From contig KV919013.1 in NCBI GenBank assembly GCA_002049455.2, forward strand, positions 1 to 64,000: 64,000 bases of DNA. The letters run 5' to 3'. Origin of the DNA: Porphyra umbilicalis. Taxonomy: Eukaryota; Rhodophyta; Bangiophyceae; Bangiales; Bangiaceae. The notes beneath the pieces are model-generated. The model saw nothing but the letters and a program-made list of their open reading frames with translations. It did not search any database and was not told the origin of the DNA. Position 1 is the stretch's first letter, and each line of letters starts with the position of its first letter. Position numbers and translations under genes: made by a program. This document shows positions 59,759 to 64,000 of the stretch, in pieces.

Positions 59759-61265
59759 CTGGCTGGGGCGTGAAGGTGCCCGTCGACGCGGTGGATTGGT
59801 GCGCAGGCGCAGATTCTTTGGGGGAGGGGACGAGCCACGTTGCTTGCTCTGGTGGCTTGAACCCGCTGCCTGCACCCAGCGGCAGGTAAGGCACCCTCGT
59901 CTGCATGTATGTTCATGCTAGTTGTCGGCGTGGAGCCTCTGCGGAGGCCCTCGCCAGTTTTGGGCCCGGTGCGTCGGCACCGCGGTCATGACCTTCGTTG
60001 CCCTTGGCCGTCGCCAGCGCGGTGGATATCCGACGCCCACAGTCAACGCCAGGTCGCAGACCCAGTCGCATGTTCTTCATGCCGCGTTGGTCTGCCCATG
60101 CCTTATAGAAGGAGCTCTTCATTGCCTGCATTCCGGGCTTGGCGACGACAGGCCGGCCGCTCGGTCGGAGAGACAGCCACCCTCGGCGGGTGCCTGAGGA
60201 ATGCATCGATTGCGCAACACGCCCCGCATGAAAAGATTAGGTAGGTTCTCGTGGTGCACGCGCCCGCCGCTGCCTGTGTGGGACCAGCGTCGACGCCGCC
60301 ACCGCCGTTGGTGGTGCGGCGCGCACACGTCCCCCTGCCGATGAGCCAATCCCCTGCTGCTGCCGGGGCGCCCCCAACGCGCACGCCCGTGTGCCTATGG
60401 TGCCGAGGCCGGCGCGCTCCCGGCGGCGCCGCCGCCCTTCGTCGCGTCCGACGTGGCCGACGGGCCGGCTGTTGCCGGCGGGTGCCCCGGGTGCCCCCCG
60501 CACCAAAATCTCGACGCAACGCGCACGCGCGCCCACGGCCACACGTGCCGATACGCTTGCGAAGCGCCGCCGCCCACGGCGCGCGTGCAAGGCCCCCAGC
60601 GTGTCTCACGTGGGGCGGCCGCGCCCGCCCATGTCCATGGGTGGCGAGCCCGACCCATGTCATGCGCCACGGCGGCGGCCGATCCGGGATCGGCTTACCG
60701 TTGCGGCGGCGGCCGCTGCCGTGCCCAGCCCCGCCCGTGGTCGTACCCATCCCCCCCCCCCCATTCTCCGTGTCTCTCGCCCCGCCTCGGGTTCTCCCGT
60801 CACCCCTCGTTGCCCCGCCGCACCGCGACCCGTGCGCCGTCATTACGGTCGCGGGGGGGCCCACCTCCCCCGACCCCGGTACACCTCCCCACCGCCGGCC
60901 GGCGGCCGCGCCGCCCGCCCCCCCCGCCCGTGCCGCGCCGGCGGACCGTCGAGGGGGAGCCCCGTCGCCGCACCGCCGCGGCCGTCGCGGCCGCCACTGT
61001 GGGCAGGGGCGGTGCCCACGGTGGGGGGTGGCGGCGCGGGCCCGCCGGCGCCACCTCGGCGGGTGAGCTTCCCGCTCGTCCACCCCCCACCCCCCCACCA
61101 CCATTCCCCCCCCCCCCCCCCGCGACCATGCCCCCCCCCCACGCACCTCCCCCCGCCGCGCCGGCCGACGCTGCCCGTGACGGCAACGGCGCCGTGGCCG
61201 ACCGCCGGCCGAGCCCCGCCGCGCCGCCCGTGGCCCGTCGGTCGCGGCGCGCGGCGGTGGGGTGT

Positions 61266-61296
<31 letters not shown>

Positions 61297-61779
61297 TTGA
61301 CACGCCCGCGCCGCGTCGGGGGGTTCGACCCACCAACGCCGCGTCGGGTGGCTTGACAGCCGCGGGTGCCGCCCGCGCGCACGCGTGGGTGGGGGGTTTC
61401 TCCCGTGGCCGTGGGTGGCACGCGTCCCATGGGGGGGGGGGGGGGCGGGGGGTGCGGACGGCTGCGAGCGCCACCGCCCCGGGCGGCGATGGCTCTGGAC
61501 GCCGCGCCGCCGCACGCGCGGGGGTGGTGGCTGGCTGTTTATAGGGTGCGCCTCGGCCGCTCGATACGGACCGGGAGGGCTCGGCACCAACGCACGCCCC
61601 CACCGACGCAAGGGTGGTGAACCGCAGCGGCAAGCAGCCACGATCGCCCCCCGCTGGCCTGCCGCCTTCCCCCACCCCTTTCCTCTGCTCGGCCGTACTC
61701 CCCCTACACCCCCCACCTCCCCCACCCCCACCCCCACCCCCACCCCCACCCCTCCTCCCCCCCCCCACCAGCGGCGACC
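59759..61779. other. 2.0 kb intergenic, low complexity
   Basis: Long open frames on both strands (for example 60103-62160 minus) are Pro/Arg/Gly-rich and explained by composition. No domain is seen. The end, about 61650-61779, is C/T-rich with a (ccccca)n tract at 61718-61752 and is probably the leader of the protease-like gene. Confidence 0.5.
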
Positions 61780-62709
61780 ATGGTGTCCCACCGATTTGCC
61801 GCCACCCTTGTGGCCCTGACCGTCGCCACCGTCGCCACCGTGGCAGCCGCCCAAGCGTACCGCCTCGGGGACACCAACCACGACACCCCCGTCAACGTGT
61901 CGGCGTTCAAGCCGACGCGCACCGGCCGCCTCGTCGGCGGGCGCGTCGTGGCCGCCGACGCGGCCGACACCGCCGCCGTCTTTTTCGCCAAAGTGTTTAC
62001 GCCCGACGGCCTCGGCTTCTTCTGCGGCGGCGCCCTCCTCGATCCGCGCCACGTGTTGACGCGCGCCGGCTGCGGCGCGCGCGTCGGGGATGTCGTCCGC
62101 GTCGGCGGCGTCGGCATCTTTGACGGCCTCGAGCGGCACGTGGCGGCGGTGGCGGCGCACCCAAACTACACGGCCAACGGGGACTTGTACGACGTGGCGG
62201 TGCTACGCCTCGCCGACCCGCCGACGGCGGCGGCGGTGGCGGCGGCGGGGCTCGTGCCCGTGCGCCTCAATGGGTGGGCGTGGGACGAGGCGGCGGCGGT
62301 CAAGCCGACCAACTTTACGGTCGCGGGCTTTGGCGCCGTGGACGCGGCGGGGGAGACGCGCGGCTCCCCGCGCCTGCGCGTCGGCACCCAGCGGCTGACG
62401 CCGTGGGCGACGTGCGCGGCGGTGACGGACCAGGTGCCGATCCCGCTCGCGATCGACGCGCAGGTGTGTACCAACATGGACGCGGCCGCGTCGACGGCGC
62501 TGTGCGCCAATGACATGGGCGGGCCCCTGTACATCCGCTACGCGTACCGGGGGGGGGCCGTGTTTCAACTGTTTGGCGTGGCGAGCTACTGGGTCGCCTC
62601 GGCTGAGGGGCCCCTGTGCCCGGGGGGGGGGCTCCCCAACGTGTACACGCGGGTGGAGAAGGTGCGGAGCTGGGTGTGGGGGGTGCAAGCCGCCGGCTGG
62701 GCCGCCTAA
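61780..62709 (+). CDS. Trypsin-like (S1) serine protease homologue, probably inactive
   Basis: Secreted chymotrypsin-fold protein of 309 residues, single exon, ATG at 61780. Signal peptide 1-26 (FAATLVALTVATVATVAAAQ). The domain starts at VGGRVVAAD and follows the S1 plan: FFCGGALLDPRHVLTRAGCG, VAAHPNYTANGDLYDVAVLR, the paired Cys blocks and ALCANDMGGPLYI, ending LPNVYTRVEKVRSWV. The catalytic Asp is present (Asp138). The His position, TAAHC in active enzymes, reads TRAGC (Gly97), and the Ser position, GDSGGP, reads NDMGGP (Met246). The specificity residue before it is Ala240. The fold appears intact with a clean ORF, so this is a pseudoprotease rather than a decayed gene; a binding or regulatory role is likely but unknown. 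Confidence 0.92.
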   Translation: MVSHRFAATLVALTVATVATVAAAQAYRLGDTNHDTPVNVSAFKPTRTGRLVGGRVVAADAADTAAVFFAKVFTPDGLGFFCGGALLDPRHVLTRAGCGARVGDVVRVGGVGIFDGLERHVAAVAAHPNYTANGDLYDVAVLRLADPPTAAAVAAAGLVPVRLNGWAWDEAAAVKPTNFTVAGFGAVDAAGETRGSPRLRVGTQRLTPWATCAAVTDQVPIPLAIDAQVCTNMDAAASTALCANDMGGPLYIRYAYRGGAVFQLFGVASYWVASAEGPLCPGGGLPNVYTRVEKVRSWVWGVQAAGWAA

Positions 62710-63159
62710 ATTTAGGGGGGGCGCGTCGCGTGGGGGGGGGGGGGGAAGCGTCGTGCCGCGCGTCCTGCGCGCGCCGCGCGGTGGGGTATGTATCGACTAC
62801 GTATTACGTATATAGCAAAATCGACAGGCGACAGAAGAAGACAGGGGCGGTCTGTAAAGTACGAGCATGCATTGTCGATGGACGGCAGGGGGTCGGGGCG
62901 GGATCCCCCACACCGGGACAGCGGGCGCCGCGCGGCGGTCAAGGCGCAAAAGGGGAGGCGCGACGGACTCGAACGCGCACGCGCCCGGCCGCCGCCCGGA
63001 GCCCAATGACCAACGCGGAGCACGATGGGGGTCTCTGCGCGAGCACGTCCCCCCGGCCCGACCTCCCCCCCAGCAGCCAAGCCGGCCACGCGGCCACGCC
63101 CCGCGCCGCCAGTGGACGCCAGCCACCCCCGCCGCCCCCCCCCCCCCCCCCCCCCCTTT
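62710..63159. other. Gap between convergent genes
   Basis: 3' flanks of the protease-like gene and the reductase gene, with a G run at 62733-62746 and a C run at 63136-63156. No gene is seen. Confidence 0.4.
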
Positions 63160-64000
63160 TCAATCCCCCCCCAACGCCCGCGACTTGGCCACCGCGACCG
63201 CAACCGCGTCGGCGACAGCCGCGCGCACCCCCCCCCGCTCCAACGCGAGGACCCCCCAATGGTGACCCCCCCCGGGCTCTCCACCCGGTTCCGCACCACC
63301 GCCGGGTGGTCGGCGCCCGGGGCGGCGAGGAGCGCGGCGGCCCCCCCCACCCCCCCCACCGCCAGGCGCGTCGCCGCGTCGCGGGGGAGCCCCGCCGCCA
63401 CCCCCGCGTCGGCGAGCGCCTCGACCCAGAGGGCGGTCCAGCTCGGGGCGGTGCCGGCGAGCGCCGTGGCCGCGTCTTGCAGCGCCTCGGGCAGCACCTC
63501 GACGGTGCCAATGGCGGCGAGGAGGGTGGCGGCGGTCGCCGCGTCGGGGGGGGGGTGCCCGCCCCCGCAGAGAGGGTCGTTGTCGACGCGCGCACGGCGG
63601 CGGCAACGTTGGGCATGGCCCGCACGACGCGGGGGGGGGAAGGGGGGGGGGGGGGGGGGGGCGTGCCCCCGTCGGCGACAGAGGCACCGTCGGCAGCGGT
63701 GGCGGCGGCGAGGTGCCCCGCGAGGGCGCCCGTGCCGACGCCCGCCGCGACCGACAGCAGCAGGCACGCCGGCGTCCAGTGGGGCCCCACCTCGGCCAGC
63801 ACCCCCGCCACGGCGGGCGGCTTGACGGCCAACACCACCACATCCGTGGCGCCCGCCGCCGCTGGCGACGCGGCGAGGTCGGCCATCATGGCCGCCGCCG
63901 ACGCGTGGAGGTGGTCGGCGGGCACGCCGAGGGCGGCCATGGCGTCCCGCCCCCCCGCCGACCGGTTGCACGCGTAGATGGCGGACGGGGGGAGGCCCCC
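63160..64000 (-). CDS. P5CR: Pyrroline-5-carboxylate reductase, 5' end outside window
   Basis: Last enzyme of proline synthesis: reduces pyrroline-5-carboxylate with NAD(P)H. The window holds the C-terminal four-fifths; the N-terminal GxGxxG strand lies beyond 64000. Visible blocks: SAIYACNRSAGG, ATDVVVLAVKPPAVAGVLAE, LLLSVAAGVGTGAL, VVRAMPNVAAAVRASTTTLS, then GTVEVLPEALQDAATALAGT, APSWTALWVEALADAGVAAG, LPRDAATRLAVGGVGGAAAL, HPAVVRNRVESPGGVTIG and, in another frame, LALERGGVRAAVADAVAVAV. MPN, ALAGTAPS and SPGGVTI are the family's cofactor and substrate motifs. Frames shift at G/C runs near 63550, 63640 and 63265. The stop is at 63160. Confidence 0.88.

Follow-up and report, generated by a model that had tools for sequence, protein, structure and literature searches.

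Is a trypsin-fold gene that has lost both its catalytic His and Ser a protease in decay, or is it kept for a role other than cutting? The question is raised by an ORF of Porphyra umbilicalis in the first 64,000 nucleotides of contig KV919013.1 (assembly GCA_002049455.2, forward strand), the whole stretch of DNA that was analysed and that we call the window. The ORF (61780–62709, + strand) encodes 309 amino acids from ATG to TAA and is intact, as the initial annotation had reported. Residues of the S1 domain were called by alignment with solved trypsin-fold chains and with trypsins of the same genome, and are given in chymotrypsin numbering. The gene is laid out as follows:

61780–61851 (+), signal-peptide-like N terminus, residues 1–24 (MVSHRF...VAAA), a hydrophobic core and then Q at the putative cleavage point (translation, hydropathy)
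61852–61929 (+), short spacer or propeptide with the zymogen-activation Arg, Arg50 (residue 15 in S1 numbering), as its last residue (alignment A1)
61930–62706 (+), mature chymotrypsin-fold (S1A) domain, which starts at LVGG, runs to the end and lacks the catalytic His and Ser
62059–62073 (+), TRAGC in place of TAAHC, with His57 replaced by Gly and Ala55 by Arg (family alignment)
62191–62193 (+), Asp102 of the triad, kept (invariant, 8 of 8 rows)
62497–62523 (+), ALCANDMGG, corresponding to a segment such as DSCQGDSGG in intact paralogues (family alignment)
62584–62592 (+), Ser-Tyr-Trp at 214–216, where several intact paralogues have Ser-Trp-Gly (Trp216 in 8 of 8 family rows)
62707–62709 (+), stop codon TAA

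An S1A fold without its catalytic residues

A Pfam-A profile search of the window protein returns a single family, PF00089 Trypsin, at 66.3 bits against a curated cut-off of 20.6, with residues 68–299 covering profile positions 14–220 of 220. The closest solved chains in a sequence search are ordinary trypsin-like ones, namely transmembrane protease serine 13 (E 4.9e-9) and chains named trypsin and factor Xa, and the predicted structure, a confident model, has the chymotrypsin double-barrel fold. The S1 markers, including DVAVL, are kept, in agreement with the initial annotation. The protein is probably secreted, to judge from its N terminus: the Kyte–Doolittle maximum over 15 residues is 2.21, from residue 10, and reaches 2.39–2.61 in the five other family members with a full in-frame N terminus. 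The segment between the signal peptide and the activation site is about 26 residues long and has no cysteine, nor is there any in residues 1–50.

The active site reads R55, G57, D102, A189, L190, N193, D194, M195, S214, Y215 and W216. Of the His57-Asp102-Ser195 triad only the Asp is present (G57, D102, M195), and neither the oxyanion-hole Gly193 nor an open 214–216 strand is found (N193, S-Y-W). The S1 alignment confirms the change of TAAHC to TRAGC and the replacements of Gly193 by Asn, Ser195 by Met and Asp189 by Ala that had been read from the sequence at the start; it adds Leu at 190 and Trp in place of Gly216, and this Trp may perhaps fill the S1 cleft. What is kept is D102 (in DVAVL), D194, S214, G196, G197, the activation site R|LVGG (R50|L51 in the protein) and six paired cysteines (42, 58, 168, 182, 191, 220).

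The initial annotation had also taken the clean ORF as evidence. The frame is indeed open, but it is weak evidence for the gene, because GC is 76.5% over 60001–64000 and an opposite-strand ORF of 685 amino acids covers the first 381 bases. That the gene is coding follows instead from its 38–50% protein identity to seven paralogues and from the codon model described below. Runs of 9, 10 and 6 G occur in its last third, at 62549, 62622 and 62678; the frame stays open, and matches the paralogues, beyond them.

The family in the genome

We searched 83.8 Mb of genome sequence in 665 contigs (C denotes a contig and L a locus) and found at least 43 matches to the Trypsin profile, some of which are exons of one gene and some HtrA-like (GNSGGP). 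Seven paralogues with HVLTRAGC and ALC[QE]RDxGG lie on four contigs other than that of the window (C18, C44, C186 and C238):

C44:254671 (L022), one gene
C44:304366 and C44:308681 (L028), two genes, an inverted pair about 4 kb apart
C186:141099 (L036), one gene
C238:93476 (L025), one gene
C238:30638 (L026), one gene
C18 (L039), one gene of two exons with a 245-base GT-AG intron

HVLTRAGC, ALCxxDxGG and S-[YF]-W are all three present in the window gene and the seven paralogues. Read backwards, the TRAGC pattern gave one chance match. Five of the eight members were searched against NCBIfam, which returned no family for them. The two L028 genes are 96% identical, and 12 of their 14 differences are non-synonymous. 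In both C238 copies the signal peptide (MGRVLSVAV...) is out of frame with the domain and lies upstream of RIVGG; a poly-C run between signal peptide and domain differs between the copies. A protein and pattern search found a ninth relative (L095, C85:67690–68423) with TSAGC and CERDVGGP, the parts of which lie in three frames, as in a recent pseudogene or as a result of assembly errors. It is nearest to the window gene, with the same residue in 81 of 135 codons versus 64 for C238b. A TRAGC-coding match at C319:205–225 was excluded from the family, its frame being 45 codons long with no further S1 sequence.

Outside the alga's own contigs matches are distant. Prokaryote contigs hold 42 loci with 24–33% identity (39 from Streptomyces and one each from Rhodoluna, Actinacidiphila and 'Actinobacteria bacterium'), which we take as generic trypsins; the two active sites read among them (L053 and L056) have TAAHC and GDSGGP. 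On viral contigs eight stretches matched a pattern and none was confirmed.

The main tree has 30 rows, eight of the family, 20 others from the alga and two from bacteria. In it, a branch with 100/99 support separates the window gene and its seven paralogues from the remaining rows. The branch holds at 96/99 after removal of the active-site columns and at 100/99 in a tree of 29 partly different rows, and the intact S1A paralogues, which show 27–36% identity over matched stretches, fall outside it. TRAGC is found in 8 of 8 family rows, and His57 and Ser195 are absent from all eight; in the other algal rows His57 is present in 19 of 20, and 14 have both TA[AG]HC and GDSG[GS] in the aligned frame (in C190, C303:40818 and C227 the GDSG motif was found in a later piece). 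Trp216 is likewise in all eight and absent from every other algal row that reaches this segment. Because the clade of eight shares its losses and the other algal rows mostly keep His57 and GDSG[GS], the alignments are most simply read as a single loss of the catalytic residues at the base of the family, and not piecemeal in the window gene. The losses had been counted as independent in the initial annotation; seven paralogues share them, so that they are not independent but most simply inherited from the family ancestor.

Over the 243 gap-free columns of the eight genes, R55, G57, D102, A189, L190, C191, D194, G196, G197, S214 and W216 are invariant. Position 195 may be M, V, P or A; at 193 the seven paralogues have Arg and the window gene has Asn. 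Of the eight active-site positions that have been replaced, five show one and the same new residue throughout, compared with 58 invariant columns among all 243, a modest excess (p = 0.02). Around the activation site, R50 (S1 Arg15) and V52-G53-G54 are invariant in the seven rows of family alignment A1, and V17-G18-G19 and D194 are present in 8 of 8 family rows; position 16 is Ile or Leu, with Leu in the window protein and Ile as the family state. Along the sequence of the family alignments, as distinct from distances in space, no new invariant Ser or His adjoins the lost ones.

A second lineage may have followed a similar course. C20:386210 (L097) reads VTLASC, with GDEGAP in a later piece (His57 to Ser, Ser195 to Glu), and C38:251547 (L040) reads TVASC and GDVGAG (His57 to Ser, Ser195 to Val), with Asp102 apparently Asn. 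The two pair at 96/79 near C190, which has intact motifs, and apart from the TRAGC family, a placement made less sure by their long end branches. They apparently lost His57 and Ser195 separately, and pseudoproteases may thus have arisen at least twice in this genome.

Selection on the family

For distant pairs NG86 dN/dS was uninformative, as third positions are 83–94% GC and near saturation (ratios 0.49–0.98); the two near-identical pairs, with 14 and 12 differences, had ratios of 2.2 and 1.3 respectively. It was replaced by a codon model with position-specific base frequencies, which assumes one base composition and gives a single omega of 0.26 for the eight genes (243 codons). Purifying selection, which the initial annotation had proposed to look for, is therefore seen at the level of the family. 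The window branch has omega 0.35, a value that includes the stem of the other seven, since the family root is probably on this branch, and omega = 1 is rejected for it (2dlnL 10.1), as it is under the other topology, like that of the 29-row tree (2dlnL 13.9). None of 40 simulations with a neutral window branch reached 10.1, the largest value being 5.25 and the lowest omega 0.575.

The picture is less sharp for the window gene by itself. Once C85 joins the data set (now 135 codons), omega is 0.45 on the window tip and cannot be told apart from 1 (2dlnL 1.28); on the C85 branch it is 0.32 (2dlnL 3.75). Constraint on the family is thus firm, and constraint on the window gene alone is suggestive. 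On the branches of the two near-identical pairs omega rises to 0.89, higher than elsewhere and indistinguishable from 1 (lnL –4200.46 with a separate omega for the pairs versus –4203.67 with one omega), and these recent duplicates look relaxed or fast-changing. The shared losses and purifying selection suggest that the family is kept for binding rather than cutting. The selected non-proteolytic role that had been proposed for this gene holds up to that extent for the family; for the window tip it does not gain the same support.

Proposed role and alternative explanations

The reading that we put forward, at a little under an even chance, is that of a secreted S1A pseudoprotease with its zymogen switch intact, which active paralogues cleave and which serves to bind a partner; the lack of activity, the switch and the partner are what we infer. 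The window protein would leave the cell as a zymogen-like precursor, and an active trypsin-like paralogue of the alga would cleave it after Arg15 (Arg50). Candidates for this step are available, because 14 of the 20 non-family algal rows carry both active-site motifs. The freed end at Leu/Ile16 would then dock on Asp194 and bring the activation loops into the order seen in an active protease. With His57 and Ser195 gone, position 193 altered and the cleft perhaps filled by Trp216, the ordered face could bind a partner with no cutting, the partner most likely coming from the alga's extracellular protease network (a protease, an inhibitor or a substrate). The outcome would be a proteolytically switched cofactor or decoy. 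Retention of the activation site and D194 could also reflect folding or descent and not a switch. Also weighing against this reading are the departures of the window copy from the family at 193 and 16, the omega of its tip once C85 is included, the omega of the near-identical pairs and the frame breaks in both C238 copies.

A dead protease without any switch is a possible though rather unlikely alternative: the secreted fold would act only as a stable scaffold, with a surface that binds a foreign enzyme such as a pathogen hydrolase or inhibitor. The architecture (secreted-type S1, non-catalytic, multi-gene, beside intact paralogues) is like that of glucanase inhibitor proteins, which PMC3091767 describes as catalytically inactive proteases and apoplastic effectors, and the omega of 0.89 in the near-identical pairs is as in a binding arms race or relaxation. 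However, the owner here is an alga and not a pathogen, and the activation site and D194, both retained in the members compared, would be dispensable in a plain scaffold. Drift of a duplicated trypsin gene after loss of function is improbable, even though the nearest relative, on C85, is broken over three frames, the frame is broken in the C238 pair, and neutrality cannot be rejected for the window tip alone. Against it, the losses are common to and fixed in a clade of eight, the codon model without C85 rejects a neutral window branch, the ORF is open through all three G runs, and the protein still has its six paired cysteines, D102, D194 and the predicted fold. Neutral decay of this copy beside intact orthologues, which the initial annotation had named as the finding that would speak against its view, is accordingly not what the family shows; only the tip with C85 added leaves room for it.

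Another alternative is a working enzyme with an active site rebuilt around another Ser, His, Lys or acid, which we consider very improbable. D102 and S214 are there in 8 of 8 rows, and Ser196 (window protein numbering) is invariant in the seven rows of A1, but position 195 is free to vary, and with Asn or Arg at 193 and Trp at 216 neither an open cleft nor an oxyanion hole is to be expected. The His in HVLT, residue 91 of the window protein, is invariant but also occurs in many intact paralogues, and His127 is nearly invariant across 33 S1 rows; as both are widespread, neither is a new catalytic residue. That the gene is a contaminant or an assembly artefact, for instance one from an oomycete or a bacterium that grows on the alga, is hardly credible. 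Oomycetes do possess dead trypsins (PMC3091767), and the oomycete Pythium porphyrae attacks Pyropia yezoensis (PMC6928737), which we count for this explanation. Yet the family is spread over six contigs of one assembly (C18, C44, C186, C238 and C253, and broken on C85), one member has a GT-AG intron, prokaryote contigs hold only the distant loci at 24–33% identity and viral contigs none.

Relation to known pseudoproteases

S1 pseudoproteases as such are already known, from insect serine protease homologues and oomycete glucanase inhibitor proteins. The clip domain is an N-terminal domain with six cysteines, and in insect clip-domain serine protease homologues (cSPHs) the usual loss is that of Ser195. 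These non-catalytic proteins need proteolytic cleavage for their activation, according to PMC6901238. By analogy, cSPHs such as CLIPA28 would be the closest working model for the window protein, as both have the S1 fold without catalysis and occur as several genes per genome beside active proteases. Unlike them, the window protein has no clip domain (no cysteine in residues 1–50, and the Trypsin profile alone matches), its family is altered at 57, 195, 193, 189 and 216, and the host is a red alga.

In vertebrates, the HGF beta chain, haptoglobin, azurocidin and protein Z are dead S1 domains used for binding, and HGF keeps activation cleavage and the residue-16/Asp194 switch, which control receptor binding. 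Several of these proteins carry kringles, CCP or Gla domains, whereas the window protein matches the Trypsin profile alone. Glucanase inhibitor proteins come from the pathogen, and their targets are plant glucanases. Those of Phytophthora, secreted inactive trypsin homologues encoded by several genes beside intact paralogues (PMC3091767), resemble the window family by description and in the S1 fold. Intact paralogues of the same alga (L009, L010, L011, L017 and L023) have the same domain and, in several cases, an IVGG-type activation site, but keep TAAHC and GDSG, unlike the window family. In Pyropia yezoensis, trypsin-like genes increase after ACC treatment, as stated in PMC12394230.

Our literature searches, which covered open-licence papers, returned no red algal multi-gene clade with the TRAGC signature. 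Animals supply the best-known protease cascades with dead members; if our reading is true, a dead-trypsin clade in a red alga would show that a distant multicellular lineage arrived at the same solution, and a switch kept while catalysis is deleted would separate the function of the S1 switch from catalysis. It is more speculative, and on balance unlikely, that an extracellular S1 cascade arose in red algae separately from those of insects and vertebrates and that its switchable pseudoproteases, activated by intact paralogues, gate wall remodelling, spore release or defence, the second lineage perhaps being a separate origin. For annotation, at least eight genes matching the Trypsin profile here, and perhaps two more from the second lineage, should not be called proteases.

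Two further observations concern the surroundings. Downstream of the window gene, a convergent ORF (62939–64000, – strand) is open to the end of the window and has a weak PF03807 match (21.0 bits against a cut-off of 21.6); its VVLAVKP and RAMPN motifs presumably mark a resemblance to pyrroline-5-carboxylate reductase. Elsewhere in the assembly, pigment genes point to a red alga as the host: contig C665 carries 8 near-complete phycobilisome genes of the 11 genome matches, one nearest to B-/R-phycoerythrin alpha chains and another to allophycocyanin alpha chains.
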